Assembly (NCBI RefSeq): GCF_001625215.2
Contig: NC_030389.2
Location: 44,133,454 to 44,197,453 of the forward strand
DNA: 64,000 nt
DNA from: Daucus carota subsp. sativus
Taxonomy: Eukaryota > Streptophyta > Magnoliopsida > Apiales > Apiaceae
Reading direction: 5' to 3'
Shown: in pieces, positions 16,120 to 64,000 of the stretch
How the letters are laid out: each line of letters begins with the position of its first letter
How positions within the stretch are numbered: position 1 is the stretch's first letter
Position numbers and translations under genes: made by a program
Notes under the pieces: model-generated
What the model was told of the DNA's origin: nothing
Seen by the model: only the letters and a program-made list of their open reading frames with translations
Databases searched by the model: none

Positions 16120-16847
16120 CAGAGGTAGCACTTCCCAACCTGGTTTAACTCTGAATTTGTTTGTGTTAGTTTCTGCCTATGCAGCACTTCATCTTTTGCT
16201 ATAAAATAGAAGTCATTTATGCACCTTATCTTTTGCTTTAAAATTAATTGCGCTTGTCAACACTGAAGTGTGATAATACTTGGTTGTCGTAACTTTTCTT
16301 GGGATTTTGTGTACTGCAGTACTGGTTTTAGCTGTGTTATGAGTTGAAATTTTATCTGTAAATCTAAAATCTTGAAAATTTTGATCAAACAAATTGAGAG
16401 GAGTCAGAGTTGAGGAGAATTTGAAGATTTTGATAAGGCTAAAAGATGTGTATTAAGTCAGTTACTACTTGCTCCTGACATGTGAAATTACTGAGAGCTA
16501 ACCAGAGAGTAATCATAAGAATTTAAAGAGTTTTTGTGATGCTCTATAATCAGAAACAAGTTGCAATGAAAATACAAAGGATCGTATAAAAAAATTATAT
16601 TAATTATTTGTTTTGTTTTTGATGTATAAAAAGTAGGGGGCTCTAGCATCCCTTAACCCCTCTCTGGTTCCGCCACTGCATATCAGTTGCAATATGATGG
16701 ACATGTCAGCTGTCAGAAATTAAAATCCTAAACCATCGCTAAAATCTGGTTCACCGAGTTGATAATAGACTTTCGAAGGAAAAATTGGTGGAACAAGGAT
16801 GAAAGAAAGATAGCTAAGTTGATTCTCAGGTTTTCCCCTTGTTCTTA
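16120..16847 (+). other. 3' flank of F-box 1, duplicated after F-box 3
   Basis: Non-coding sequence that matches the flank of F-box gene 3 (23977 to about 24860). At about 16637-16680 copy 1 carries a CTCTCTGGTTCCGCCACTGC piece typical of transposon ends where copy 3 has unrelated sequence. Confidence 0.55.
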
Positions 16848-17154
16848 TGTTGTGTTTGGTTGGGGGGAATGGAATGGAATGGAATGAAATGAGTAAAAAT
16901 ACTTAAAACTATATAGATAGGAAGAAAGTTTGAAAAAAAATTGAGAGAGTGCAAAATTTCTATGATAAGATTTGAGAAAAAATTGATGATAAGAGAGAAT
17001 GGACCATTCCATCTCAAATTGAAGGTGTGATATTTAGGATATGATGCAATGAATGGAATGGAGGAAGGAATGAAATTTCTTAAAATTTGTTCATAAAATA
17101 GTTCATCTTTCATTCCATTTCTTCCGGAATCATTCACCCCAACCAAACACAACA
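16848..17154. mobile_element. PIF/Harbinger-type MITE (TTA duplication)
   Basis: A 307-bp element with inverted ends TGTTGTGTTTGGTTGGGG and CCCCAACCAAACACAACA, flanked by TTA on both sides. The paralogous segment near 24845 has the uninterrupted site (GTCCTTAGAGTCAAGG), which proves insertion. Confidence 0.85.
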
Positions 17155-17534
17155 TTAGAGTCAAGGACACAGGGGAAGTGGCACTTGTTATTATCATAAA
17201 ATATCTTATATAAATTCCATGGTTCAGGTCTGCGGCATGAATGAGCTGGTATTTTGTTGGAGAATTACCACCTGAGCTTCCACTATGAAGATTATAGAAA
17301 GCGGTAAATCCATTATTCATTCATAGATTAGAATTTTGTATCACCGTGATCTGAGAAAATGAATTGGCAGAGCAATATTTTTCTCTCGTCATAGAACCTC
17401 CTGTAATTTTGTCGATATTACTTTTATTATCTTGTTTGATGGACCAACAAGGTTGTGGATTTCTGAATTTTGCACAGAGTACATATCTCTAGACAATATT
17501 TCAAGAAATTAAGATATGTTACTGAAACTAAATC

Positions 17535-18210
17535 AGTTTATTTTATGGAATCCTGCTATTAGACAAGCTATGCAAATTAATTCACCAGTTAAACAAACAG
17601 TTTGCATATAGCATTTTTTGGATTATGTTGGGATGCGATGGATCATGATTTTAAAGTGGTTAAATTTTTTGATTATGATAGAAAGGCGGGGTTTATGGCA
17701 AAGCCATCAGAGCATCTCCAACTCTCACAAGCCCAAATCCATCTGGCTTTTCAAAATTAAATTTTATAGTCAATGTTCACAAAAAAATAGAACTCCAACC
17801 ACATCAACTCCTTGTATATAATTATAGCCATCTATAAATGGAACTCCAACCACAGCAACCCCTTGTGTATAATTATAGCCATCCCCAATGAATGGCTATA
17901 TTTGTCGATCCGCTACAGATTTGTAGCGAATTAAACGTCATCTCCCGCAATTTATTTTTCTCCTTCTCACTGATTACATATAATTTATTACCATATTAAA
18001 CTGATATATTATATTTATAACAATCTAAATATTAATAACATACTATTTTTAAATTATAGCCAACCAATACAGCCAATACCATTGAAGTACAATGTCTTAC
18101 AGGTTCGCCAAATTTTACATAATGTCTTACAGATTCAATTTAATCAACGATTATAGCCAACGCGATTGGAGATACTCTTAAGCTCGTCCATTTTTACTCA
18201 TGTAAATATT
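17535..18210 (+). pseudogene. Truncated F-box pseudogene 1, split by a MITE
   Basis: Host gene remnant. From 17535 the sequence matches the FBA part of the intact copies (FILWNPAIRQAM, then FFGLCWDAMDHDFKV) but lacks the F-box and has frameshifts. At 17709 it is cut by a MITE; after 18177 it resumes with TAAGCTCGTCCATTTTTACTC and ends near 18210. Its sister at 25225-25830 continues further. It is 1.4 kb downstream of F-box gene 1, as the sister is of gene 3. Confidence 0.75.
17710..18177. mobile_element. PIF/Harbinger-type MITE inside F-box pseudogene 1
   Basis: A 468-bp element with inverted ends GAGCATCTCCAACT and GATTGGAGATACTC. Flanks are TCA (17707-17709) and TTA (18178-18180), a mutated 3-bp duplication. 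The sister pseudogene shows the empty site (AAAGCCTTTAAGCTCG). Confidence 0.75.
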
Positions 18211-18339
18211 TATATATATAATATGTTACATTAATTATTTATTTATATTATAAAATTAATATATTTATGATATATTTAAATATTGTTAGAAAAAATTATT
18301 CACACATAATCTCATTAAATTATTATTTATATATTTTTT

Positions 18340-18540
18340 ATTGAGATTACGCTCAAAGATTACGATACACATTAATTTGATTTTGTTTCAAATTAATTAT
18401 TATGTTGTTATTTATTAATTTGATTCTGTTACGATTTATTCGATTCGATTTGGATTAATTCGATTCGATTAGAAATCTGATTCATAACCAATTCCATTAT
18501 AAATGAGATTCTTCTTACACCAATTCCATAATCAATAATA
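18340..18540 (+). repeat. Upstream segment shared with F-box gene 1
   Basis: Second copy of the upstream segment described at 14140-14400, ending about 110 bp before the ATG of F-box gene 2. Confidence 0.6.
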
Positions 18541-18650
18541 TTAACTTTCACACCCTTCCTATATGTTCGACGATAATTCTCTTACTTGATTTGTAACTCG
18601 AGTACGGTACGGTTATTCTCAATAAGCAGCGCAGCAAGCAACTTAAGGAC

Positions 18651-19817
18651 ATGGCGCAACCTTGTTTGCCAGACGACATAATAAGTACAAATATACTCCC
18701 GCGCTTGAGTATAAAATCTGTCACACGATTCCGCTCCGTTTGCAAGTCATGGAACTCTCTGATTCTGGAGCCAGGTTTTGCAAAAGATCATCTCTATTTC
18801 ACCACTCAAAACCCTCAAGACGACACTCTCATATTTAACAAGTTAGTCCTTGACTATAATAAATTTGGTTGCATGACTGGTGCTCACTACGGTGATATAG
18901 CTGTACTATCTTCATCCGATTTGTCGGAAACTAAGCTGTTGGATGTCACAAGTGCTGAGCTACACATGCTTGGTTCAATAAATGGTTTAGTCTGTCTTTT
19001 TCTTGATAAACAAGATCAGTTTATCGTATGGAACCCTGCTATTAGACAAGCTATGAAATTCGGTTCACCAAGAAAACAATTTTCGTTACGTGATATGAAA
19101 ATAAAATTTTATGGATTTTGTTGGGATGCTGTGGAAAACGATTTTAAAGTGGTGGTATCTTATTACAAGTTGGGGAATCTTGACTCCTTGTCCATTTACT
19201 CGTGCAAATTAGGCTCTTGGAGTTCACCGTTTAATTCTCTGTTTACTGAAGTCTGGTCGGATGGTCACAGATTGCCATGTGCTATTGTAAGTGGAGTGCC
19301 GTATTGGACATATTCTTGGTATTCTAGGGGAACCGTTAAGCTGTTTAAGTTTGACGTTGTTAGTAAGGATTTTAAGAAGGTGCCTGAACTTTATCTATTC
19401 GACGAAAATAAGTTCATTGTTGTCAATCTAAAAGAGTGTCTCTCTGCATTGGTGTATGATTACGCTCAGTCTATTAGTAGTTTGGTAGACGTACATTGTT
19501 TTGATGAGGGACTAGGTGTTTGGAGTAAGATGTACAGTGTTGGACCAATAAATGGTGATCTGTTCTGTCGCGGTTGGAGTAATATGCACAATGTCCGTGT
19601 AATTACTGGTGAATTGTTGGGCTGTTTTAAGCACGGTGGTGAGATTGTGTTCTCTGCAAACAGTAAGTACAGGTGCTACGATCACAAAACAGATGAAACC
19701 AGGGATCTTCACAAACCGAAGGGGGATACAGAGCAGTGCTTTAGCTATATAGCAAGCCTGTTTTTTCTTGAAGGAATGAAGCCTCAGCATCAGGTAGAGC
19801 CTACATTGTGGAAGTAA
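18651..19817 (+). CDS. F-box protein with FBA domain, copy 2
   Basis: Intronless 388-aa SCF receptor, F-box at residues 6-48 and FBA domain after it. It differs from copy 1 mainly at residues 80-95 (LVLDYNKFGCMTGAH) and near residue 180, where it lacks the SPL of DSPLSLY (DSLSIYSCKLGSWSSPFNS). The C terminus GMKPQHQVEPTLWK is shared by all three. The 3' flank matches the others for about 190 bp and then diverges near 20010. No disabling change is seen, so it should encode a protein. Confidence 0.92.
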   Translation: MAQPCLPDDIISTNILPRLSIKSVTRFRSVCKSWNSLILEPGFAKDHLYFTTQNPQDDTLIFNKLVLDYNKFGCMTGAHYGDIAVLSSSDLSETKLLDVTSAELHMLGSINGLVCLFLDKQDQFIVWNPAIRQAMKFGSPRKQFSLRDMKIKFYGFCWDAVENDFKVVVSYYKLGNLDSLSIYSCKLGSWSSPFNSLFTEVWSDGHRLPCAIVSGVPYWTYSWYSRGTVKLFKFDVVSKDFKKVPELYLFDENKFIVVNLKECLSALVYDYAQSISSLVDVHCFDEGLGVWSKMYSVGPINGDLFCRGWSNMHNVRVITGELLGCFKHGGEIVFSANSKYRCYDHKTDETRDLHKPKGDTEQCFSYIASLFFLEGMKPQHQVEPTLWK

Positions 19818-20009
19818 AAGAGGTAGCACTTCCCGACCTGGTTTTAACACTGAATTTGTTTGTGTTAGTTTCTACCTATGCAGGACTTCATCTTTTGCTA
19901 TAAAATTGAAGTCATTTAGGCACTTTGTCTTTTGCTATAAAATTAATTGCGCTTGTCAACACTGAAGTGTGATAATACTTAGTTGTAGTAACTTTTCTTG
20001 GACTACTGT

Positions 20010-20873
20010 TTTCTTCTTTTCTAAAACACGGAGAAGGGTGAATTGGAGGGGATCTTAATTAGATTGAGTTGCATCCACCTTAACTAGTTAGACAGATCAT
20101 CCGCCACCAAATTGGAGATGCTATCTTGGGCCGGAAAACCTCACTAGCTTCTGAAAAATCAGCACAGCCAGTGAGGTCTAATGGCCTAAAGATGTCTAGC
20201 GCTCACTTTTTGAACGTAGTGAGTGAGTCGTTTGATAATTAACCCCTTTTAAATATGATGGAACTCAAATAGAAGTGAGGTTTTCATATCATGGAAAGCA
20301 GGTGAAGGTGAAGAAACAATTCAGAAACGATTGATCAAGCATTTGAAATACCTTATTGTAGATAAACATTTTCGCCAACCAATTTGGTTTTTATGTATGA
20401 ATTTTAAGGGCAGGTAAAACTACAATACAGATTGATCAAAGGTTTTACCACCAATATTGGATTGGCAGAATGTTGTAGATACATTAAGAAAAAATTGCCA
20501 ACAATATTGTATTGATAAAGATTGTTAGGTAAGAGATTGACGGAGATTGTATTGTGATAGTAAAGGATCATTTTCTTATTTGGAGCATTTTAATTCTAAA
20601 TTATGATATTATGGGTCATTTTTTCTCAAAACTCCTGTTTACAAATTTTGAAAATAAGTTTACAAATTTACATATAATATTTATTTCAAGTGCCCAATTA
20701 TCAATCCTTATAAACTATTTTGTCTTATAATTTAATTTTAATACATCAAATTTCTGCAAATTGATGTTAGAATATGTTGTGGCCTCTCATTTTTAAAAAT
20801 TAGATTAAACTACATACAATTAGTTTAATTTATATTTGTTTTAAAATAATTAAAATCTCACAACTGCAATCAA
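20010..20873. other. Spacer, no gene seen
   Basis: Unique sequence after the shared 3' flank of F-box gene 2, becoming AT-rich towards the Helitron. No open frame or RNA gene is supportable. Confidence 0.4.
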
Positions 20874-22026
20874 TCAATATACTTATATAAAGGAGAAGCG
20901 AGGGGCGTGTAGGTGGCGCCTCTCACATCGCTTTGTTATATTTTTCTAATTTTCTAGAATTTTTCAATGAAAAATATTAAAAATTAGAATTACATTTTTT
21001 AGTTTCGGATATATTGGAAGCAAATTTTAGAATCTGATTTTGTTTCAAATTATTTATGGTATATAATAGCTTGAAAGTTTTAATCTGATTCTGTTTCGGA
21101 TTATTTAATCATGGGAAAGAGTAGCACACAAGTCTCTCTGCACCTATAAATAACCCTATAGTTGTAGGATTTTGGATCATCTAAACACAACCTACTCTCT
21201 CTTAATACAACAACCCTACCTCTCTCTACTGATAGTTCTTTTGCTCGATTTCTAACTCGGTGGTGCCATTCTTCTGCAACGATAAGTGAAGGCTGTTTAT
21301 ACGGTACTAAAAAAAATAAAGGTTGTTGCAAGCAAAGGTAGTTATAGACCGCTATGTGGGAGTCGACAAATCCAAACACGGGAGAAGAATATAGTCTTGA
21401 CATAATATGGATGGATGGTATCAATAAATTAACTATTAGTGATGTATGTTTGTTAGTTTTCTTTTATAATATTTGTTTTGTTCATCGGACATGTTTGCCG
21501 TTGTTAATTTTTATATGATTTATTTTGTATACAGGAAAATATTATTCATTGTTTGCTCCGTTCAAACAACTTTTAAGTGAAAGTTGTTTATACAATATTA
21601 AAAAATAAAGGTTGTTACACGCAGGAGTAGTTATAGACCGCTATCTCACGGATTTAAGTTAGATGTTTTTGTGCACAATCAATCCAAAAAAATGGAGGAA
21701 GGTGACAATGTAAGAACATGATTACTTTTAAAAAAAAACACAGATAAAATTAAGATTTGTCGTGCTTTGAATTGTTAATTACGTGTAGAAATTTATTTTC
21801 ATTTTTTCACCATGAATTATAGTCCAATTTTGCAATTTTATATATTAGTATTGGTATTACATTTAGATTTTTATAATATAAAATTTATTTATCCTACAAA
21901 TATTAATTTTTAATCATTAATATACTTTTTATAGACAGACACAAAATTATTATACTCTATAAATGTTAATATTAAATTATTAATATAATTTTTATAAGCC
22001 GCCGCAACGCGCGGCTTCTCAACTAG
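20874..22026 (+). mobile_element. Non-autonomous Helitron, copy 2
   Basis: Starts TCAATATACTTATATAAAGG after A and ends with the GC hairpin GCCGCCGCAACGCGCGGC, TTCTCAACTAG, followed by T. It shares nearly the whole length with copy 1 (6208-7443) in the opposite orientation, including a GTAGTTATAGACCGCTATG segment and the CTTATCGTT-type repeats. The 107-codon frame on its minus strand has no known domain. Confidence 0.88.
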
Positions 22027-22697
22027 TTATTAATATAACTTGTCACTAAAATTTGTCACCTAACTAAATTATTTGAAATATAATTCCACCCCCATTGTAA
22101 GATGCTTGCACAATTATGATTGATAAATATAAATCTAATTATTTATTCAACATAAGCACTAAAATATATTAACCCATATATATATAAGTCATTAAGTACC
22201 TATAACCTCAAAAGTTATAAAAAGGTTTTGTAGGAAATAGAAAATTGTATGAAACAATTTTTTATTTTTTTATGATAAAAGATTTTAAAAGTAATAGAGA
22301 AGATGTTTGAATGGAATGATTAATTTTTACAATCAAACTCCATCTAAGATAGGATATAAGAGTTTTTTTTTCTGAGAAACAGATGAATTTAAAAAACACC
22401 GTGTCCTTGTGATTTGGGAACAAGTTGTGTTTGTGTTTTTGTCCAAAGATGTTACATAATTTACTCTCGAATATTATTAAAAATATTAAATTTTTTATAT
22501 TATCAAATTCAAAATATACAACGTACTGTAAACAAAATAACACTTTTTTTTTATCATAACTTTAAGAAGTTTTAAACAGCACTCATGGCAAGTTCTGCGT
22601 GGTTAGATTGGACTCTTTAACCCTAGCCCAACTGCCCGGCTGTTGAAGAGATGGTATGCATTATATACATACTGTTTTAATGAATAGAAGCCAATAC
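22027..22697. other. AT-rich spacer, no gene seen
   Basis: Low-complexity sequence between Helitron copy 2 and the SINE fragment upstream of F-box gene 3. Confidence 0.4.
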
Positions 22698-22745
22698 TGA
22701 CCACGATTGGATAGCCCGGTGGTCGAGAGTTTATCCTCTGTTGAT
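22698..22745 (+). repeat. 5' fragment of tRNA-derived SINE
   Basis: CACGATTGGATAGCCCGG and TTATCCTCTGTTG match the 5' half (box A side) of the SINE at 36606. Box B and the tail are missing. It ends 65 bp upstream of the ATG of F-box gene 3, so it may be part of that promoter. Confidence 0.6.
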
Positions 22746-22809
22746 CTTTTTAGGTCTTTAGAATATTTGTTGGTTTTCTTCTTAATACGTAGCCAAGCAA
22801 CTTAAGGCC

Positions 22810-23976
22810 ATGGCGCAACCTTCTTTGCCTGAAGACATAATAAGTACAAATATACTGCCGCGCGTAAGTATAAAATCTGTCACACGATTTCGCTCCGTTT
22901 GCAAGTCATGGAACTCTCTGATTTCGGAGCCCGGTTTTGCAAAACATCACCTCTATTTCACCACTCAAAACCCTCAAGACGACACTCTCATATTTAACAA
23001 ATTAGTCCTTGACTATAATAAATTTGGTTGCATGACTGGTGCTCACTACGGTGATATAGCTGTACTATCTTCATCCGATTTGTCGGAAACTAAGCTGTTG
23101 GATGTCACAAGTGCTGAGCTACACATGCTTGGTTCAATAAATGGTTTAGTCTGTCTTTTTTTTGATAAACAAGATCAGTTTATCGTATGGAATCCTGCTA
23201 TTAGACAAGCTATGAAATTCGGTTCACCAAGGAAACAATTTTTGTTAGGCGATATGAAAAGAAAATTCCATGGATTTTGTTGGGATGCTGTGGAAAACGA
23301 TTTTAAAGTGGTGGTATCTTATTATGAGTGGGGGAATTTTGACTCGCCTTTAAGCTTGTACATTTATTCGTGCAACTTAGGCTCTTGGAGCTCACCGCGT
23401 AATTCTCTGTTTAATGAAGTCTGGTGTGTTGGTCGCGGATTGCCAATTGCTATTGTAAGTGGAGTACCGTATTGGACATATTGCAGGGGAACCCTTAAGC
23501 TGTTTAAGTTTGACGTTATTAGTAAGGATTTCAGGGAGCTGCCTGAGCTTCATCTATTCGACAGTAAAAAAGATGTCTCTGTTGTCAATTTAAAAGAGTG
23601 TCTCTCTGCATTGGTGTATGATTACGTTCAGTCTATTAATAGTTTGGTAGACGTACATTGTTTTGATAAGGGACTAGGTGTTTGGAGTAAGATGTACAGT
23701 GTTGGACCAATAAACGGTGATATGTTCAGTTGTGGTTGGAGTGATATGCAAAATGTCCGCGTGACTGGTAAATTGTTGGGCTGTTTTAAGCACGGTGGTG
23801 AGATTGTGTTCTCTGCAAACAGTAAGTACAGGTGCTATGATCATAAAACAGATGAAATCAGGAATCTTCGCAGCCAGGAGGGGTACACACACAAGTGTTT
23901 TAGTTATAAAGCAAGCCTGATTTTTCTTAAAGGAATGAAGCCTCAGCATCAGGTAGAGCCTACATTGTGGAAGTAA
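22810..23976 (+). CDS. F-box protein with FBA domain, copy 3 (mosaic)
   Basis: Intronless 388-aa SCF receptor with F-box at residues 6-48 (LPEDIISTNILPRVSIKSVT) and FBA domain. The N-terminal third is like copy 2 (LVLDYNKFGCMTGAH, AVLSSSDLSETK), while the middle is like copy 1 (DSPLSLYIYSCNLGSWSSPR) and the C-terminal part mixes both (RCYDHKTDE as copy 2, SQEGYT as copy 1 type). A TYSWYSR segment of the others is shortened to TYCR. Its 3' flank and downstream pseudogene match those of copy 1. The upstream side does not match copies 1 and 2 and carries a SINE fragment instead. Gene conversion or unequal exchange is the likely cause. Confidence 0.92.
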   Translation: MAQPSLPEDIISTNILPRVSIKSVTRFRSVCKSWNSLISEPGFAKHHLYFTTQNPQDDTLIFNKLVLDYNKFGCMTGAHYGDIAVLSSSDLSETKLLDVTSAELHMLGSINGLVCLFFDKQDQFIVWNPAIRQAMKFGSPRKQFLLGDMKRKFHGFCWDAVENDFKVVVSYYEWGNFDSPLSLYIYSCNLGSWSSPRNSLFNEVWCVGRGLPIAIVSGVPYWTYCRGTLKLFKFDVISKDFRELPELHLFDSKKDVSVVNLKECLSALVYDYVQSINSLVDVHCFDKGLGVWSKMYSVGPINGDMFSCGWSDMQNVRVTGKLLGCFKHGGEIVFSANSKYRCYDHKTDEIRNLRSQEGYTHKCFSYKASLIFLKGMKPQHQVEPTLWK

Positions 23977-53518: not shown

Positions 53519-55732
53519 TTAACTCTCCTTGCATACTTTCTCAGGCTTTACTTCAAAACCGCCATCTGGTCTCTTCTGAAGTGAAAAAGGCAAGTAAGTT
53601 CCAAGAATTTTGTCCCATGTAACGAAAAATGGCTGTGAAAAGTTATATTTGGTGCCATAAAGCTGGTGGTGGACATCATGATAAGCAGAGTTGTTCCTAA
53701 AGAAGATATGGAAAGGGTTTCCAGGAAGCAATAAACCACAGTGGTCATCAACTGTTTTAATGGTGGCAAAGGAAAAGAAGAAGATGGAAGCTCGAGGGGA
53801 CATGCCAGAAATGAGAAAAGATAAAGCCCCACCAATTGTATCTAGAATAAGTCCCTCCAACGGATGATTATATAAAGCTCCAAATGCATAAGGTACAACG
53901 AGGCGGTGATGTTGAGAATGTACATGTCGGTACAAGAACTTGTTATGGTGCATGTATCTATGCATAAAATATTGCCAGGTATCTAAAACCACCATTGCAG
54001 TAAAGAATTGCCTAGCAAGAACAACGGGGGAAGACTGCTCCCCTGTGCCATCACCAGCAGTATCCCCAGTCACCTGAAAACAAAGTTTATCATAAATGTA
54101 TTAGTGCACGGACAAGAAATTAGTGATCACTTATTATACAAGTATATAATCTAATTTTAAGATACAATGCATAATATCAGGCAAAAATAATATGATTTAC
54201 TACTGGAAACTTGAAAACTAATAAAGAACATACAAACAAGGAAAACATTTATTGTCGATCAAAGAAGAACTGGAAGGAAAAAAGGACTCTGACGCTGGGA
54301 GACAACATACCGACAAGGCGACAACATACAAGATATCAGTTGTATATGCAACTTAAATTATAAAGACATAAAAAATACAAGGAATGACAGGCACTAGTGA
54401 CCAAAGGTGGTATATATACAATTATAATTGATAAAGAGAAACGCAGCATGTGCTTTGCTACCCTAAACAATATTCAAGGAGCTGCCTTTGATCCTCGACT
54501 ATCTATGCATTCACTTGATTTTCACTCTCGATAAATGATCAATATAGCAGACTTCTTAGGACAGCTATCTAACACTCCATCTGTCACTGGTCGCTTGTTC
54601 GGGTTTTCTTTGATCTTTTTTCAGCTTTGTAAAAAAGGTATCATGCATTCACTTCTCAAATAATTTTTAATTCAGACAAAGAGTTAGCTACTTAGCTTTA
54701 AACTTTTTATTCAAACAAAATACTGTGAATAGATGATACCCTTTCTAGAAACCTTGAAAATTGCTAACAATGTCGACAGGGACTAGAAAAACTTTTGGAG
54801 GGTAGATAATATATATCAAACCTTCCAAGTTACTGGAATCATTTCAAATGACAAACATAAATACATAATCTTTCTGGGGAAAAAGGCATTTAAATATTTT
54901 CTTATAGGAACTATAATCTTTGCAATTACTTTTCATTCTAGCTACTGCATTTTACAATAAGGACATCCAATTTGACTAGAACATATGGTCCTAGTAGAAA
55001 ATGCTTATAATGACAATATACTATCTACAGTAATTCACAAATGCAAAAGTGGTTGCACAATCATCTATCAACATCTCTCATTCAAACTATAGCATTCCAT
55101 TGCAATTTATTCAAACAAAAGCCAAGATAAAATACTTTGATAGAAGCATAAACAAACTTAAAATTAATCTTCTATAACGCAAAGGGGGTTCTTATCACAT
55201 TTTTGCAAATTAAGTCTCTTAAGCAGCATTCTTCCCGGTATACCTAATTTAGTTCTAATGTACTAAATCTACCCCCCCCCCCCCCCCCCCCCCCTCTCTC
55301 TCTCCCCCCCCCTCTCCCTCTCTACACCTATTGAAGTTACAATGTATTAACTTTCCCTCCCTCCCCTATCTCTCTCACACAGACAAACAAACACACACAC
55401 ACACACACAATTACATTACAGCAGTACAAAAGTTAATATATTAGTGAAAACCCCAGATCCAAACCAAAAAAAACACAAAATGCCACCAAAAAACACCATA
55501 AAAATCATACCTTGAACAAGATTATAGCCACAATAGCCTGCACAAGCTGCTGCAGAAGAACCCCTTTAACAACAACACTTTTAGGCACTAAATTCTTCTC
55601 ATTCTCATCTTTTCTTGAATGCAATCTATACTTATCCATACCTCCAAACAATATATACATCCCTGAATAAACCCAATACACAATTATAGGCATTATAACA
55701 CCTAACAATTCATCTGAAACCCTAAATTCCAT
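53519..55732 (-). CDS. SBH1: Sphinganine C4-hydroxylase (SBH)
   Basis: ER membrane di-iron enzyme that hydroxylates C-4 of dihydrosphingosine to make phytosphingosine long-chain bases. Two exons on the minus strand: 55511-55732 and 53519-54073, joined by a 1.4-kb GT..AG intron, give 258 aa; Arabidopsis SBH1 has 260. The start at 55732 (MEFRVSDELLG) matches the family; an in-frame ATG 33 bases upstream (55765) would add 11 residues. Histidine boxes of the fatty-acid hydroxylase family are complete: His112-x3-His116-His117, His126-x2-His129-His130, and His206-x2-His209-His210. Conserved VYWVYSGMYILFGGMDKYRL and SFATIKTVDDHCG are present. The C terminus EKVCKES replaces the usual dilysine type, which is slightly unusual for an ER protein. 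Convergent with PMT2. Confidence 0.95.
55272..55410. repeat. Homopolymer C run and CT/CA microsatellites
   Basis: In the SBH intron there is a run of 23 C (55272-55294), then CT-rich and C-rich tracts and an (AC)n stretch near 55388-55408. On the gene's sense strand this is poly-G. Confidence 0.9.
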
Positions 55733-55765
55733 CTCTTTCAGCTCAAAAGCAATATAAAAGTCCAA

Positions 55766-56525
55766 TCTTTAAATCTACAGAAACCAAGAAATGGGTAGCA
55801 AATATTTTTTCAAAATTTTTTTTTGATTAATTTTTAAAAGGACCCAATTGGGTAGATTTGAATTGGGGTTTGTTGTTTGGATAGTTGAGAAGAGATATAA
55901 AAATTTCTAGGGTTTCAAGATTGAAGCTTTTTGCCCAAATTGAAATGAAGATGGAAAATATAGTGGTTTGTTTTACTATTTGTTCTGTTATATTTGTTTC
56001 ATATTTGGGAGAAAATTATTTAATTTAAGTACAACTAGATATTGACCATTTAGTACCTGTCAATTGGTAAAGTGAACATGGAATCTGAGCTGGCAGTAAA
56101 AAAAAGTGGTGGACCCGGCTAGTTTATATAGAATTATTGTAACAAATAATTTTTTTTACTTCCGTTGTGAGAGTTGATTAGGCTTTTATTATAAAATGAA
56201 AATAAATGATACTTTATAATCATTAAAAAATTTCTATAGACATGCATGAATATATTTTTGACAGTTTATTACTAAAGTTTGGAGTTTTTCTGAATTAACT
56301 ATAACGTTTTTAAACATATAATGCTAAAAGTAAGTTTAATAATTTAAATGAAATTTAACTTGTTTTTTTTTTGAAAAGGAAATTTAAGTTGTTTAAAAAT
56401 AAATTGAAGCAGATTATCTAAAGGATACCCAAATCACAATCGGCCCAAATAAGTATATCTTTTCCGAGCCCAACCATAATCTCTTGTCATTTGCTTTGTT
56501 TTTGGTCCAACACAGTTGCTTTGTT
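55766..56525. other. SBH promoter side and spacer
   Basis: AT-rich, holding the 5' UTR and promoter of the minus-strand SBH gene. No other gene seen. Confidence 0.4.
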
Positions 56526-56673
56526 TTTTTGTTTTTTTTTTTTTTTTACAATGCATGCTTATATGACTTATAAATTAATATTTGTTCTGATATTTTTCGG
56601 ATAAGTAAGTCGAACCCGAATCTCCCGAGACAATTGAAAAATAAACTCATCATTTAGATTATCCAATCGTGCT
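56526..56673 (-). repeat. tRNA-derived SINE, reversed
   Basis: Reverse copy of the 36606 SINE: T run at the left, then ATGACTTATAAATTAATATT and AGTCGAACCCGAATC (box B in reverse), ending CCAATCGTGCT. Flanked by an 18-bp duplication with one change (CAACACAGTTGCTTTGTT at 56508-56525 and CAACACAATTGCTTTGTT at 56674-56691). Box A is mutated by comparison. Confidence 0.85.
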
Positions 56674-56730
56674 CAACACAATTGCTTTGTTAAGTTGCTT
56701 TTTTTTTTTATTTACCATAAAAAACAATGG

Positions 56731-57125
56731 GGCCGTTTGGCTTAGCTTAAAATAAGTGACTTAGTATTACTTAAAATAAAGAAGAGAATTATAAGTGATA
56801 AGCGAACTTAACATATAAGTTATCAAAAATGTTTGGATAACTTCACTTATAAATCAATTGAGTGTTTGGTAATTTAAATTTATAAATTAGAAAAAAAATT
56901 CAAATCATAAAAATACAAAAAAATTATTAATAAATAAAATTTATTACGTATTAAAAATTTAAAAATTTCATAAAAATACAAATCAAAAAAAAAAACTCAA
57001 AAAAAGCTAGCATTTGTAACTTCCAACTCTAGCTCCAAAAGGCTGACAAGCCCTTGCGACTTCTGCAAGCTGAACTCAACTTTTATATAAAAAAAAGTGG
57101 GAAGTGGGTGTTCCCAAACACCACA
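56731..57125. mobile_element. Probable hAT-like MITE
   Basis: Left end GGGGCCGTTTGGCTTAGC and right end with TTCCCAAACACCACATT are loosely inverted, and the interior has AATAAGTGAC and TATAAGTTATC pieces as in the element at 46668. Borders are uncertain. Confidence 0.35.
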
Positions 57126-57261
57126 TTAAGTTGTGAGCATTTTGTTTTTTCCCATGTTGTTTCCTAGCCACAGCTGCTTTCTAGTCCCATTCCACATATA
57201 AACATCACATGATATCATTTGCATTTAGTCTTCAACCCAATCTAAGACATCTTTCTCATCT

Positions 57262-57333
57262 GACCGCATAGCGCAGTGGATTAGCGCGTTTGACTTCGGA
57301 TCAAAAGGTCGTGGTTCGATCCCACTGTGGTCG
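57262..57333 (+). tRNA. trnR-UCG: tRNA-Arg (anticodon UCG), short T arm
   Basis: Acceptor GACCGCA pairs with TGTGGTC, D arm GCGCAGTGGATTAGCGC, anticodon stem TTTGA/TCAAA around CTTCGGA gives TCG (Arg, CGA codons). The T arm is GTGG TTCGATC CCAC, a 4-bp stem, two bases shorter than the usual 5-bp arm. Box B (GGTTCGATCCC) is still good, so it should be transcribed. A TTTA-containing repeat starts right after the 3' end, without a clean T4 run nearby. Confidence 0.8.
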
Positions 57334-57437
57334 ACACATTTATTTACCAAAAAAAATTATTCAGTTTTTCGGACACATTTATTTTACCAAAAAAATTATT
57401 CAGTTTTTCGGACACATTTATTTTACCAAAAAAATTA
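57334..57437 (+). repeat. 39-bp tandem repeat directly after the tRNA
   Basis: Units start at 57334, 57373 and 57412, each with ACACATTTATTTTACC, an A run and ATTCAGTTTTTCGG. The third unit is interrupted by a Stowaway MITE and resumes at 57665 (TATTCAGTTTTTC). Confidence 0.85.
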
Positions 57438-57664
57438 CTCCCTCCATCTCATTTAACTGCTTTGACTTTTTTACACGTATTTTAAAGTGTAAAAAAATCA
57501 AATCTAAATATAATATTCTTTATAAAATTTATATCAAATAAAAGTTTAGAATCTAAACTTATTTGATATAAGAATTGAATTTTTTATTAAACGTAGACAT
57601 GTTCTTTTACACCTCAATATACGTGTTAAAAAGTCAAACATCAGTTAAAATGGGACAAAGGGAG
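57438..57664. mobile_element. Stowaway MITE
   Basis: 227 bp, flanked by TA. Ends CTCCCTCCATCTCATTTAAC and a right end with AAAATGGGACAAAGGGAG are inverted. Inserted in the third unit of the tandem repeat. Confidence 0.85.
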
Positions 57665-57916
57665 TATTCAGTTTTTCAAAAAATTGCACATTTTAAACCC
57701 AAGTCTGCAGCAAAATAAGTTCTTTTCCTAAAATCATTCAGTTGTTTTGTAAAACATTGTACATTCTAAACCCTGTAAAAATCATTCAACCTTACAGCAA
57801 AATAATATGCTGGTGAAGACTGATCAAGAGTACTGTACTGTTAGTAGTTAGTACTAGTTAGTACTAGCTATCCAGCCAAAATGCATGAGCCATGAAGCTT
57901 TCAGTGTTAAGTTCTC

Positions 57917-57926
57917 TCTATATATA
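57917..57926 (+). promoter_or_regulatory. TATA box before hairpin pair A
   Basis: CTCTATATATAGTAAC lies about 65 bases upstream of the first hairpin. The matching place in copy B has TCTATATAAG, and both are preceded by the shared AAAATGCATGAGCCATG. Confidence 0.55.
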
Positions 57927-57979
57927 GTAACATACCTGCTCAACCAAAGCCATCTGATATATAGCTTGTAGCGAAAAGT

Positions 57980-58068
57980 CTAATTGAGTATTAGAGGGAA
58001 CTAAACACAGCTGCATTGTTGTTTAATCCATCCGCTTTGTCTTTAGTTTACTCTAATATCTCATTTGC
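57980..58068 (+). ncRNA. MicroRNA-like hairpin A1
   Basis: The 5' arm (57985-58006, TATTAGAGGGAACTAAA) pairs with the 3' arm (58040-58063, TTTAGTTTACTCTAATATCT) over about 22 positions with one bulge and two mismatches. The loop region is about 33 nt. The arm is conserved with hairpin B1 while loops differ, as in plant MIRNA genes. I do not recognise the family. Confidence 0.6.
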
Positions 58069-58140
58069 GGCTTTCACTCTCTTTGGTAACCATAAGAACT
58101 CCTCCCCACCGCACACTCTATGATTCAACCGTGAATTGCC

Positions 58141-58225
58141 TTATGTGAGGATCGGATGGAATTAAACAGCTAGCATTTTTGTTTATAAGATGCATTCGTT
58201 TAATTTCCTCCGATATCTCATCTGT
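58141..58225 (+). ncRNA. MicroRNA-like hairpin A2
   Basis: The 5' arm (58145-58167, GATCGGATGGAATTAAAC) pairs with the 3' arm (58197-58220, GTTTAATTTCCTCCGATATC), with further GCAT/ATGC pairs near the loop. The likely mature region on the 3' arm, TTAATTTCCTCCGATATCTC, is identical in hairpin B2. Confidence 0.62.
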
Positions 58226-58399
58226 GGCTTCCACAGTTTTAGTTATATGTCATTTGTGAATTAGTAACAAGAAATGCTTAAATTTTCGTTGTCTGCTTGC
58301 TTGTTTTTCTGATTTATTTGCTTTGCAGCAACACTCGCTGGAACAAACCATAAAACGTATACAAGACCGGTTTTTAGCAAGCTTAATTGAGAACACCAG

Positions 58400-58600
58400 A
58401 ACTAAGCCTGTCATGGATCATCAGCAATGCCTTGTTATGATCAGCTCATTTTCTGTCGATTCAATCAGAAACAAATCACCTTAGGCCCTTCTCCACGTGT
58501 TAAAATCTCTTCTAGGTGGTAGTCATAGTTAACTCTAGCCCTGTATTCAGCCTCTCGCCATAGTTTGTGCAATACCATATCATAAGCATTTCTAAGACAA
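58400..58600 (-). pseudogene. CUL3-like pseudogene fragment (deleted copy)
   Basis: Matches about 62615-62800 of the larger cullin pseudogene: both have GTCATGGATCATCAGCAA, AGAAACAAATCACCTT and TTGTGCAATACCAT. On the minus strand it codes remnants of AYDMVLHKLW-type sequence with breaks. Most of the cullin is deleted. The following 58600-59180 matches the intron side of the larger copy. Confidence 0.6.
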
Positions 58601-59337
58601 CGAAAACAAGTAACAACATATCAGAAACATCCTCTTACAGACAAAGTTATTGTTAACTACCTTATATACCAGTCTTTGAGTCTGTAAGCTTCTAACAGAA
58701 CCAGTACCAGCAAAACCTTGCAAATTCCAAAAAAACTCAATCTTAATGAAATCTAACAAACAGAACGGTAAATGATGCAAGTGGCTTTCTCTAAATCCAG
58801 AAACAAAATTTCCTGTTACCTTCTAGTGAACAAAGAGAGGGAGAGGTCTGAGTGGGAATAATATAACAGTTTATTTTTACATTTCTCAAAAGGCGTATTT
58901 TAAATGCACATTGCTATATTTTACCCTAGCCCGATCCTCTTCATTATGACATATACAAATTAAAAAATCCGCATCAAATCAATTGACTATATTAATAATA
59001 GAACAGTTATTGTCCACATCTCGAAATGTATATAAAGCCAAATAATAACATTAGCTTAAAAGTAGTATCGCGAGAAACATTTCCAAATCATAAGGGCCGG
59101 TAGTTATAACAATTTTCCTGTAGGTGGTTCTTTAAATGCTTGATCTTAAATTGTTATAAAATCAATTTTATGGATCTGCAGACTTGATCAGCACAATCAT
59201 ACAGTACAAAACTGTTCAGCAATGAACAGATACAGACATTAACAATACACCTATTTATAGTGAAATCAGACACAACACAATCATACAGTACAAATTGTTT
59301 GAAGAAAAAAAAGTGAACTGATACAAGGGTCCAGGTC

Positions 59338-59590
59338 CCTGGCAACGTATGCCAGGGAGCTGTTAACCAACAATCAGTTTCCTGGCATACGTAGGCCAGG
59401 AGCTGTTAACCAACAATTAGTTTCCTGGCCGTTGGATACATATCCAGCGGCGGGATAAAAAAACAAAGTTTAATATGTCCAGCGCGTTTTTACGGCTGGA
59501 CGGGCGGTAAAAAAGCGCGGGACGGACCTCGTCCAGCGCTAAAAAAGCGCTGGACGTAGGTTATAATCCTGGCCGCTGGATATTCATCCA
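59338..59590. repeat. Tandem repeat and palindrome cluster (GTCCAGCGC motifs)
   Basis: Two 43-bp tandem units (59338-59380, 59381-59423) with GAGCTGTTAACCAACAAT and CCTGGCATACGT pieces. Then GC-rich palindromes: GTCCAGCGCT, five A, AGCGCTGGAC (59531-59555) is a perfect 10-bp hairpin, and CCTGGCCGTTGGAT / CCTGGCCGCTGGAT frame the block at 59424 and 59568. Possibly a small transposon; not found in the sister segment. Confidence 0.55.
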
Positions 59591-60409
59591 CAACAATGAA
59601 GGAAATGATCAGCAGAAAAATGTTAATAACATTGTAATTGAGAAAAACACTAATCAGGGCTAGCTTTCTAAAGGTGAATTAGTGAAAGACTGCACCTTTC
59701 TTTAAAATCTTTTGAGTTGCAGAGAAGTGAATTCAAGAACCCTTTGAATTTACTCCAGGTATTAGCACATACTCAACTTAAATAGGTGCCTCACTGATTT
59801 TGTAATTAATCTGGAAAAATGGAATCTTTTGGATTTTTGAATATTAAAGAAGTGCTAGGTATCTGAATTGGGTATATAAAAGGTTCATGAATGATGTGGC
59901 GGAGAATATACGCTATTTCTATTATCATTCGCGGGTAAAATGGAAGATATTAATTGGTGTGGTTGATGGGAAGGAGGTCAATCTCATTTATTATCTTCGT
60001 AACCGACAATGTCTTTTGCAATTTTTTTTTTCTGGAATCAATTTGAGGTCCCTGAGTTTCCTGTAATGATATCAGGTTCACCATAAAAGATCCTGTAATG
60101 ATATCTGGTTCACCATAAAAGATAGATCCACTTTTTCAGAAAAAGAAATGAATAAAATCTACGTGGCTATATAAATATTTTGACATTAACAAAAATCCAC
60201 GATCAGTCCGAAAAAACTACTAACAATAGTTTGATTCATATTAGACTCTAGTATTTTCATGCTAAGCACCAAATTTCATTTTCATACATAATTTCATTTT
60301 CAAACATTCATGAATCATTTTGGCGTCTCTAGCATTCCACATCTAAACGGGGTTATTTCAACAAGACCAATAAAGGAGATCTCATGAGACCTGAGGGCCT
60401 CAACCTACC
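59591..60409. other. Spacer with a 32-bp tandem duplication, no gene seen
   Basis: At about 60060-60122 the unit CTGTAATGATATCAGGTTCA plus CCATAAAAGAT occurs twice. Otherwise AT-rich without supported features. Confidence 0.4.
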
Positions 60410-60560
60410 ATCACTTTTGTTCCATATGTACATTTTCAACTCTGCAAAAAGTATTCAAGCCTTACAGCAAAACAAGTGTATGTTGGTCAAGACAGAAGAG
60501 GTGACGTGTTTAGTTACCCAGGCAAAATGCATGAGCCATGGAGCTACAGTTCGGAGTTGT

Positions 60561-60569
60561 CTATATAAG
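60561..60569 (+). promoter_or_regulatory. TATA box before hairpin pair B
   Basis: CTATATAAG, about 60 bases upstream of hairpin B1 and 20-25 bases after the conserved ATGCATGAGCCATG block. Confidence 0.55.
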
Positions 60570-60621
60570 AAACATACCTCTCAACACAAAGCCATATGAA
60601 AAATCTCTTGCATTGTAAGTC

Positions 60622-60706
60622 TTAAGTGAGGATTAGAGGGAACTAAACATGCAGCATTGTTGTTTGATTACACTTTATGTTTAGTTTCCTCTAATATCTA
60701 CCTGTG
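60622..60706 (+). ncRNA. MicroRNA-like hairpin B1
   Basis: The 5' arm (60626-60650, GATTAGAGGGAACTAAACAT) pairs with the 3' arm (60676-60700, ATGTTTAGTTTCCTCTAATA) over about 22 positions, better than in A1. The flank CTGTGGCTTTCAC follows, as after the other hairpins. Confidence 0.65.
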
Positions 60707-60776
60707 GCTTTCACTTCTCTCCGCGTTCATTAAAACTCCTCTCACCGCACATCTCCTTGATTCTACTGTGTATTGC

Positions 60777-60864
60777 CCTATGTGAGAATCGCAGGGAATT
60801 AAATAGCCAGCATCTTTGTTATAAGATGCATTCTGTTAATTTCCTCCGATATCTCATTGTGGGC
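60777..60864 (+). ncRNA. MicroRNA-like hairpin B2
   Basis: The 5' arm (60782-60805, GAATCGCAGGGAATTAAATA) pairs with the 3' arm (60834-60856, TTAATTTCCTCCGATATCTC), plus GCATCTT/AAGATGC near the loop. The 3' arm is the same as in A2. Confidence 0.65.
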
Positions 60865-61073
60865 TTGCACAAATTAGTTTCATCTCATTTCGCAAGAACT
60901 TCAAGAAATAGTAACAAGAAATGTAGCTATAAGAGATTTCACACAGATAAGGCTCAAATACCGAATAAGCAAGCATTATCCTTACAGATCGCAAATATCA
61001 AAAAAAGACAAATTTATGGTTTAAAAGGAAATATATTCAGAGTACTATACTCCAACAGTAAATAAAGATGAGT

Positions 61074-64000
61074 TCAAGATATCTGGTAATATCCTAAAGT
61101 TGCAGACTCAGGCAAGATATCGGTACAAGTTTCTTTGAGTGCCATCCCTTTCCAAAATTCACGCTCAATCAAACTCTCAATTCTTCTTCCAATCATATAG
61201 GGTCTGCCAGGAATCTTGGCTGCAGATGCCTCGGTGACCTCCGCGATGATATCAGTATGATCCACACTCGCCTTGATTTCATTATTCGTATATTGCAGCA
61301 TCAATATGATGCTTTCGGTTATTCCCACTATCTGCCTTATTCTACTTTCTTAGGATCAGATTCCTTTTCAGCTGAAACAGTTCTTATAGTTAGTTTGTAA
61401 CTTTTGCCAATGAAATTTTCATTCACGGAAAATAATCCCCCTCACTGACATCCTTGGTGTCCGATCTTTTTTCAGTACATTCTTTCCCTCGACACAAGCC
61501 AAGGAGTGCAGGCTCCTCTTCAGTTGATGGAGGGATCTCTGTAGCTCCTGGATCTCTCTATAAGCTATACTGATCAGCATTATTGAACATCATGAGGACA
61601 CACATCTGATAAGTAGATACGGTCAACTGATGCTCTTGTCCTTCCCAAAGATTGCCTTCAAGACAGCTGTGCCCATGTTGTTTGCCAAGACAATCTACGG
61701 CCTGCATGAATTTCTAGATAATAATAGCGGAACTTCTCACAGAGAGCTGACATTTCAGCTGGCAGGTTGCAAGTGACAGTGGGCTGGGGAGGCCATGACC
61801 CTGTCGTCAGAACTTGGACTATAAATGTAGGGCCTGTCTACCAGCTCAGCATCATGGGCCCAATAGAACCCCAGCATTGTTTCTTGAGAGGTTATCATGT
61901 CCGCGAGCATTCTTTCTGCTTTTAAAGTGAACTGATATCCAAATTCAGTCTCTTAGCATAACAATCAGACTTCTCTCAGCATTGTAAGAAACAGTTTTGC
62001 TGACAACAGCCGTTGAGCTAAGTGTTGCTTATAGTATTTCTCAAAAACATCTTTCTCCTTTAAGAAAAGGAGGAGCACCACTATCTTGTTAAGAGCAGCC
62101 TCAACATTCTCCTCACTGACTACCTTCAGACCTTTCCTCAATGTATAATCCAGAAATAATGAGATGAATTCAGAAGAGCGAGGATTCAGATTAAAGATGC
62201 TTTCAAACGACGAATCAAAAGCATTTTGAAATGTCTTATCATCACAAAATGCCAGATATATTATTTTATCATATTTCTCCTTGACATCCAAGAGGAACTT
62301 AACAAACTTCACAGGATTTCTTGCCCTTTCCGTATCAGCAACAAGCTGTTCACGGTTTCTCTGAGGTGAGAAGTCATCACAGCCTTCATCGTTGAAAGAC
62401 CATCAGGAACCCCGTGAAACAAATTATACATTCTTCTCAGGTCCTCAATCTTGTCATCCATAAGCATATTCACTAAGCCCGGCGTATCCAAAAGCCTGGT
62501 CTTAATTTTAGGGGACTGTAAAACAATGTCCCTCCAAAGGTGCATGCCAAGCTCACGTACAGGGGTTTTATGGTTATGTGGAATATAAGTCCTGTCCATG
62601 TACCTCAGAATGTCATGGATCATCAGCAACACTGTCCTATTCTTAACCCAATTTTTGAAGACTTCCTCCAGAAACAAATCACCTTCGGCCTCTGCTAAAC
62701 GTTTTGAAATCTCCCTTAGGCGGTTAGTCATAGTGGACTCTACCCCTGTATACAGCATCTCGCCAAAGTTGTGCAATACCATTTCATATGCATCTCTAAG
62801 ACAATGAAGAAAACATATTAGAAACATCATCTTACAGACTTTGCAGTCACAAGTTATTGCATATATGAGTCTGTAAACTTCAAGCAGTATCCAGATATCA
62901 CAATAAATCTTGGCAGATTCTAACAAACACAATTTTAATGAAATCTTTCAAGCAGAAAGGTAAATGATGCAACTACAAATGCAATTTAAAAAAAAATCTT
63001 ACAAGCAGAAAGGTAAATTATGCAACTTGTCTTTTTCAAAATCTAGATAATATTTTACTTAATCATATGATACTATCATAACAATTATTATATTAAGTGT
63101 AAAGAGTAGTCCTTATCAACATTATAAAGTATCTAATATCATCTCTAAGAGCATAATAACTAAAATATAAATTTAGAATACTCGGTAAGTTGCCCAAAGC
63201 ACGCCATTTTACTATAATTAGCTTTCATGGTTTTCCCTTGTATCTAATATATATTCCTTAACTGTAAAAGCTATAACAACTACAAAACAAATCTAATTTT
63301 AGGGAAATAATATCTTCAGCAATGCAAAAAACTTGACTACAAGAGCCGGTGCGTGTCAATTAGATCAAAAGCTCAGCGAAAAAACCTAGTTGAACAAAGA
63401 GAGGGAGCTTGAGTTGAGAAATTAATATGCAAGGTTATTGTTATATTTCTATAATGCGTCTTTTAAGTGCACATTGCTATATATTTAACCTCATCCCCGT
63501 TTCCTCTTTCGTTATGACATATACCATTTAAGAATTCTGTATCGAAGTCAATTGTGTATAGTAATAATAGAATAGAACAACGTTATAATTGTCCCCGTGT
63601 GACAATTGGTAACATAAGCCTAAAAGTATCACCGCGATAAACAATATCCCAAATCAAAAGTTCCTGTAACTATAACATAATTTTCCAATAGGGTGCTTCT
63701 TTAATATATAATCTAAAATGGTCTAAAAATCATTTATATATCTGCAGACTGATGGAATTAATTGGATTCTGTTACATGTATCAGAGGGAATAACAATCAA
63801 CTAGATGCAAGCAACTTTGACAAACATAAACACGAAAAACAAAACAAAACTTCCACATAAAATGCAGCAGCAAACAATCCACTGGTGCAACTGAAAATCA
63901 ATTTAATTAAGAGAGTAAATAAGTGAAAGATTGAGGCTTACCTATAGAGCTCATGGTAACTAAGAAGCCTACCATTGTGATTGTAAATTTCATTGATAGC
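61074..64000 (-). pseudogene. CUL3-like cullin pseudogene, 5' part off the window
   Basis: Cullin 3 is the scaffold of BTB-type ubiquitin ligases. On the minus strand an exon at 63942-64000+ (NEIYNHNGRLLSYHELY) is followed, after an intron to 62796, by a long exon with AYEMVLHNFGEMLYTGVEST, VLLMIHDILRYMDRTYIPHN, KTPVRELGMHLWRD and KYDKIIYLAFCDDKTFQNAF, then EKDVFEKYYKQHLAQRLLS. About 120 family residues are missing between TRLLDT and GLVNML. The frame shifts near 62340 (HLRE to EQLVADTERARNPVKF), again after 61990, and stops occur in the 61600-61960 part, where SALCEKFRYYYLE and GRRLSWQT can still be read. The NEDD8-side end survives as DHTDIIAEVTE and RIESLIERE but the final YRYLA is lost. 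Clearly disabled. Confidence 0.82.

Follow-up and report, generated by a model that had tools for sequence, protein, structure and literature searches.

The 64-kb stretch of the carrot genome analysed here (hereafter the window) very probably carries two polycistronic MIR2275 genes with two hairpins each, that is, a known microRNA family in a known arrangement, which is ordinary in kind and yet strongly amplified here. Namely, four stem-loops of 94–99 nucleotides (nt) lie on the forward strand in two pairs, just where the original prediction had placed them: A1 at 57975..58073 and A2 at 58136..58230 in the first pair, and B1 at 60617..60710 and B2 at 60773..60866 in the second, the spacing between the two hairpins of each pair being 62 nt. 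All four are far more stable than shuffled sequences, with z-scores of -4.26, -6.53, -4.46 and -6.79, respectively, when each hairpin plus a few flanking bases was compared with 200 shuffles, none of which reached the stability of any of the four folds. What is more, both hairpins of pair A are retained when a 336-nt stretch across the pair is folded as a whole (z of -4.92, 0 of 100 shuffles), and transcription of each pair on one polycistronic transcript is predicted. The original prediction had spoken of a clustered microRNA gene (MIRNA) family with TATA promoters, a description that agrees with the folds and with the covariation and paired-arm conservation of 21 hairpins discussed below. 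It had also recognised no named family, and this part did not stand. In particular, the MIR2275 covariance model of Rfam (RF03896) matches all four hairpins over its full length (positions 1–95), with 40.7 bits for A1 (E 2.1e-5), 63.3 bits for A2 (E 3.8e-11), 50.6 bits for B1 (E 6.6e-8) and 40.9 bits for B2 (E 1.9e-5). A2 is the sole window hairpin to pass the gathering score of 60.5 bits, and in an Rfam scan of the whole window gathering thresholds were reached by A2 and two tRNAs only; weak antisense echoes of RF03896 were seen at A2 and B1.

The geometry of the putative duplexes is shared by the four hairpins. A 5' arm of 21 nt pairs with a 3' arm of 22 nt, leaving 0–2 mismatches and one 1-nt bulge, whose position within the 3' arm is in every case nt 17. 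The annotation of plant MIRNA genes allows for up to five mismatches in the duplex, up to three of them in bulges, and all four window hairpins stay within these bounds. The putative miR2275* strands, their ends being predicted, occupy 57987..58007 in A1 (with two mismatches and one bulge), 58148..58168 in A2, 60629..60649 in B1 and 60785..60805 in B2. Similarly, the putative mature miR2275 of A1 lies at 58042..58063, with an unusual A at nt 9, and is identical in an inverted near-copy of the region, to which we return below; that of A2, at 58199..58220, reads TTTAATTTCCTCCGATATCTCA, a 22-mer common to nine of the 33 hairpins found genome-wide, A2 included. As assembled, the 3' arm of B1 (60680..60701) has one T fewer near its 3' end than seven paralogues, and that of B2 (60835..60856) one T fewer at its 5' end than nine paralogues. 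Two arm sequences had been claimed to be conserved between the pairs: the second, TTAATTTCCTCCGATATCTC, is indeed found in both, at 58200 and 60836, while the first holds for B1 (TTTAGTTTCCTCTAATATCT at 60680) and fails for A1, which reads TTTAGTTTACTCTAATATCT at 58042, i.e., TTTACTC rather than TTTCCTC, one base different from B1.

For the analysis of covariation, 21 of the 33 hairpins were aligned, further copies from contig C9 being omitted (contigs are denoted C1, C2 and so on), and 500 shuffles served as a reference. Across the 21 consensus pairs, 95.7% of the paired cells actually pair, and two-sided changes are seen at nine pairs, in a total of 30 cells, as compared with a shuffled mean of 7.7, none of the 500 shuffles giving a value as high. 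When the partners were shifted by 1–3 columns as a control, 0–8 two-sided cells were obtained. Examples of covariation, in each case with the partner in the 5' arm, include U at nt 13 opposite A and G at nt 14 opposite C. The arms are, in other words, kept paired by compensatory changes and the loops drift. That said, because kinship among sequences can beat such shuffles, the covariation should be taken as support, and not as proof, that the hairpin structure is under selection.

The genome-wide scan with RF03896, in which 61 of 78,259 candidates were scored, gave 35 rows, comprising 33 sense hairpins, a number to be read as a lower bound, and two antisense echoes. The hairpins are found on C9 (20), C5 (six), C3 (four) and C2 (three), with six of the 33 above the cut-off. 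Those on C9 form ten complete pairs derived from amplified repeats, and there are clusters on C2, C3 and C5 as well. The 33 hairpins contain 18 distinct 22-mers, with the 22-mers of B1 and B2, as assembled, occurring only in the window. A DNA search with pair A led to 22 places, all of them on C9 (43.09–43.15, 44.19–44.22 and 45.83–45.85 Mb). Here, six B-type copies show 99.1–99.8% identity over 3.0–3.3 kb, and the other 12 of the 22 places, which match pair A in part, may be decayed pairs of the A type.

The expected promoter features, namely a TATA box and a shared block ahead of each pair, are likewise present on the forward strand. The block, AAATGCATGAGCCATG, which has a TGCATG core, is matched exactly at 57879..57894 (pair A) and 60525..60540 (pair B), and the TATA boxes lie at 57919..57926 and 60562..60568, the latter being shorter than in the near-copy, with TATATA at 57919 and 60562, 67–68 nt before the 5' arms. 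TGCATG, the core of the RY element, was found 26–37 nt before the TATA box at clusters on C3, C5 (C5a and C5b) and C9 (two paralogues examined), i.e., in five of six upstream regions, and was not found upstream of the C2 cluster, the sixth; by comparison, it is present in 1.5–16.8% of dinucleotide shuffles of the 170-nt upstream regions. Since the clusters may share a common origin, its presence in five of six regions speaks for conservation and not for independent recurrence. A bacterial promoter scan was empty, which is irrelevant here.

The pathway in which miR2275 participates requires complementary sites in non-coding loci, namely those giving rise to 24-nt phased small interfering RNAs (phasiRNAs; 24-PHAS loci), and the carrot genome does contain complementary sites in candidate loci of this kind, both as two perfect matches and in clusters. 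Genome patterns were searched with up to three mismatches, using reversed patterns as controls, and the counts within loci were made by hand. The type 1 (C9) mature has 72 matches, 17 in MIR2275 loci and 55 outside (reversed pattern, 19); the C3/C5 type has 87, of which 32 are in MIR2275 loci (reversed, 11); type 2, the type of A2 and B2, has 42, with 21 in MIR2275 loci or remnants (reversed, 2); and the A1 type has 52, with 15 in MIR2275 loci and 37 outside (reversed, 20), where an A at nt 9 is seen in 25 of the 37, three of these 25 being MITE-like, i.e., resembling a miniature inverted-repeat transposable element (MITE), by hand count. Finally, a consensus pattern has 109 matches, 100 of them listed and many MITE-like (reversed, 9). 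For the analysis of clustering, 117 sites were typed from four queries (type 1, type 2, C3/C5 and consensus, the last entering with the 100 of 109 matches that were listed), and five were dropped by rule, leaving 112. This set excludes rows in MIR2275 loci, among which C2:54362113 was counted though Rfam recognises no hairpin there, and also 58 MITE-like rows that were removed by eye, 51 of them from the 100 consensus rows listed and seven of the C3/C5 type.

The 112 sites give 28 neighbouring pairs within 100 kb of each other, as opposed to a random mean of 2.8 (maximum of 10 in 2000), and 24 of the 28 are on the same strand, while the 19 sites of the reversed type 1 pattern include no pair within 100 kb. 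The largest cluster, at C8:18.69–18.77 Mb (18686165–18768824), contains seven miR2275-like sites in 83 kb, all on the same strand, and is a candidate 24-PHAS cluster. Others are found at C1:2.52–2.64 Mb (five sites, mixed strands), C8:31.12–31.15 Mb and C3:62.57–62.60 Mb (four sites each), and C1:44.785 Mb (three sites). Judging by their sequence, these clusters, in which the complementary sites mostly share a strand, resemble 24-PHAS loci, but it should be noted that local duplication alone can also produce clusters. In six clusters or pairs compared in register, the 22-nt site is 77–92% identical, adjoining blocks 23–73% and farther blocks 14–59%, a contrast that is in part due to the selection of sites by match and to indels. 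Two paralogous loci on C4 and C7, which are 78% alike over 291 nt, have fully identical 22-nt windows (8 of 328) only in one run, and this run covers the site. The two non-hairpin sites with a 22/22 match to a MIR2275 mature are C8:31146865 and C1:52129853. Moreover, Rfam found no MIR2275 hairpin at any of the eight candidate target loci scanned, and the longest stop-free stretch in ten candidate loci is 55–128 codons. Four weak sites were set aside, namely L009 and L026 (penalties of 5.5 and 7.75) and L018 and L020 (3.5 each).

A separate set of matches was rejected. The search with TTTCCTCYRATATCT gave 50 matches, 32 of them outside the C9 MIR2275 clusters (reversed pattern, 2), and the latter were considered as 24-PHAS targets. 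However, among 30 loci inspected, 22 belong to a MITE-like repeat and match the 15-nt core, two are C2 hairpins and six are others; because they are mostly this repeat, the matches prove no targets. With exact flanks, 1008 copies of the repeat (e.g., L010, L019 and L036) were counted; its majority reading among the copies listed, CCACTACTTTCCTCCACTATCTCAAATCTATT, differs by one base from the 17-nt core of miR2275. It is itself unlikely to be a genuine miR2275 target, its usual form being mismatched at nt 1, 2, 5 and 15 (hand count).

Could different MIR2275 subfamilies address different targets? We consider it conceivable, if rather doubtful, that this lineage has seen its MIR2275 subfamilies and 24-PHAS clusters separate into matched dialects. 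If this were true, A1 would have targets of its own and would be a working variant instead of a decayed copy, with co-evolution between triggers and targets. When 26 cluster or selected sites were scored against five mature types, the best fit was type 1 for nine, C3/C5 for seven, A1 for six and C2 for two, with ties between A1 and C3/C5 for the last two. In particular, the C3/C5 type, with U at nt 9, is best for the C8:18.7 Mb cluster (mean penalty of 3.1 versus at least 4.7), C9 type 1 is best for the C8:31.1 Mb and C4/C7 loci (2.0 and 1.0 versus at least 3.5), and the A1 type, with A at nt 9, is best for C1:44.8 Mb (3.2 versus 4.2) and, narrowly, for C7:1.8 Mb (3.1 versus 3.6). The 26 sites came from the type 1, type 2, C3/C5 and consensus queries, at a time when A1 and C2 were not queries, and the preference for subtypes is partly built in, because the sites had been found with those same queries. 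A later A1 query revealed further same-strand clusters of sites with A at nt 9 at C3:62.45 and C8:27.6 Mb, with three sites each. The excess of A1-type matches outside MIR2275 loci (37 versus 20) and the lack of fit of type 2 pull the dialect idea in opposite ways.

Several observations weigh against MIR2275 genes in the window and deserve to be stated together. Namely, A1, B1 and B2, at 40.7–50.6 bits, remain under the Rfam gathering cut-off of 60.5; further pair types in the covariation analysis number 23 as compared with 20.6 in shuffles, a value reached in 27 of 500; none of the 26 scored sites is fitted best by type 2, to which A2 and B2 belong; the A found at nt 9 in A1 leaves this position unpaired with the usual target; and each of the four hairpins has at least one deletion relative to the near-copy, be it through assembly error or decay. 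From three of four hairpins scoring below the gathering score one might argue that A1–B2 make up a new MIRNA family merely similar to MIR2275. Yet A2 is above this score, the other three align across all 95 positions of the model, and a common bulge and arm register place them in a single alignment together with hairpins of C3 and C5 that exceed the cut-off, and we find a new family extremely improbable. The chance that we are dealing with simple inverted repeats or remnants of MITEs that have no microRNA function is equally minute: the family match, the arm covariation with drifting loops, the hairpin clusters on C2, C3 and C5 and the promoter block common to C3, C5 and C9 all argue against it, even if a MITE-like repeat in at least 1008 copies comes within one base of the 17-nt miR2275 core.

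A weightier alternative, although still an unlikely one, is that the window contains decaying MIR2275 copies, with real losses of single bases in their promoter, arms and flanks and the working copies lying elsewhere on C9. The bearing evidence comes from the inverted near-copy: window positions 55320–64000 correspond, at 96.6% identity, to the terminal 9 kb of contig C9 (L069, C9:45841500–45850561), an end piece that may be misplaced or incomplete, and whose last 3 kb contain no telomere repeats. Both pairs fall within a stretch of mostly one-sided 1–2-nt deletions, 56900..61700, in which the window has 82 gap runs and L069 has 5, beside 58 mismatches. Over the whole alignment, the window has 98 gap runs, 83 of 1 nt and 15 of 2 nt. 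B1 and B2 each have one T fewer within the 3' arm than the near-copy, A1 has one base fewer at its foot and A2 one fewer just 5' of the 3' arm. Decay would fit the single-base losses that set the arms of B1 and B2 apart from those of their paralogues, as well as the 55–65 gap openings that separate the pair B region from each of seven paralogues, which among themselves differ by 2–16 (the higher values involving copy f), and the partial pair A matches elsewhere on C9 suggest that decayed copies occur. On the other hand, the deletions are almost all in the window, are 1–2 nt long and lie at approximately 56.9–61.7 kb, the adjoining stretch from 61701 on having 2 gap runs in the window versus 6 in L069, with 88 mismatches. 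In 55320–56899, where the runs number 14 and 34, it is L069, near its contig end, that appears as the poorer copy. What is more, the tRNA-Arg(TCG) at 57261–57335 has two T-arm bases fewer than its L069 copy (ARAGORN calls both), altogether a pattern of unpolished consensus. Because the deletions hit all four hairpins and the tRNA T arm, the 56.9–61.7 kb stretch of the assembly is probably unpolished. This casts doubt on the mature ends as they appear in the window; two of the mature sequences as read from it are probably wrong, and mature sequences from this stretch are not usable as they stand. By contrast, the A that A1 has at nt 9 is not such an error, because it is common to the window and the near-copy.

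As for the surroundings, a short element with inverted repeats and ends of the CTCCCTCC type, presumably a Stowaway MITE, lies beside the tRNA-Arg at 57438–57667, and several inverted repeats (CCTGGC..., GTCCAGCGC...) at 59320–59600, between both MIR2275 pairs, perhaps represent a small non-autonomous element. A cullin-like open reading frame of 207 amino acids, seemingly a fragment, adjoins pair B at 62309–62932, and three consecutive F-box open reading frames of 388–392 amino acids are found at 14941–23976. Outside the window, PR-10 exons of the Dau c 1 / Api g 1-like kind form arrays at C7:311843–437665 and C8:28165118–28242482. Four places on C8 match a 93-residue fragment of Dau c 1, an allergen of carrot (PDB 2wql), at 97–98% identity, which identifies the genome as Daucus carota or a very close relative; five exons of major latex-like proteins and one PR-10 exon closer to Api g 1 were not diagnostic in this respect.

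Taking the hairpins as two MIR2275 genes, one can draw on their relatives for a picture of expression, processing, cleavage and phasing. Each pair would be transcribed by RNA polymerase II from its own TATA box, and DCL1 would cut the precursor to release the 22-nt miR2275 from the 3' arm, whose length the asymmetric bulge in this arm would account for. The microRNA would then guide AGO to cleave 24-PHAS transcripts; RDR6 would copy these, and a Dicer, for which DCL3 has been proposed in eudicots, would process the products to 24-nt phasiRNAs in meiotic anthers. The 24-nt phasiRNA pathway is patchy in eudicots, and it is represented by candidate components in carrot; Panax notoginseng belongs to the Apiales as well. 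With its amplified triggers, clustered candidate targets and shared promoter block, the carrot genome makes both the pathway and the co-evolution of triggers with targets testable in a crop.

In the available part of Xia et al. 2019 (PMC6367383), miR2275 is described as the trigger of 24-nt reproductive phasiRNAs, with conserved clustered stem-loops, and DCL3 is proposed as the eudicot Dicer, DCL5 being described as monocot-specific. The same source presents polycistronic MIR2275 hairpin clusters and bulged duplexes, and refers to conditional male sterility in maize upon phasiRNA disruption; its main text, so far as available, makes no mention of carrot, Daucus, Apiales or Apiaceae. Within the accessible portions of the literature on miR2275 and phasiRNAs in carrot, Apiaceae and asterids, no description of carrot MIR2275 loci was found, with a cumin paper listing short miR2275-like reads and a carrot TCP paper using a miR2275 in target prediction. 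The A2/B2 mature string is absent from the papers matched by a literature search for microRNA strings.

How does carrot compare with known systems? In Panax notoginseng, 90 loci appear under a 24-nt PHAS heading (PMC5780745), so that 24-nt PHAS loci are on record in carrot's order, whereas the part of that paper available names miR2275 only as the rice and maize trigger. In rice, 24-PHAS loci are often clustered, and the basic helix-loop-helix factor EAT1 is enriched at 24-PHAS and DCL5 promoters, and not at the pri-miR2275b promoter (PMC5825165, as far as accessible). The complementary sites in often clustered loci are a feature that rice and carrot have in common, but the rice system is documented by reads, degradome and chromatin immunoprecipitation, and that of carrot is known from sequence alone. 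Finally, the hairpin family, the 3'-arm sequence, the predicted bulged duplex and clusters with hairpins tens of nt apart are the same as in the MIR2275 of other eudicots. For these, the accessible main text of PMC6367383 counts six duplexes on three precursors in litchi, with figures of 10 each for citrus and grape and of 17 for strawberry. What sets carrot apart from these is the amplification, with at least 33 hairpins, 20 of the 33 arranged in ten pairs on one contig.

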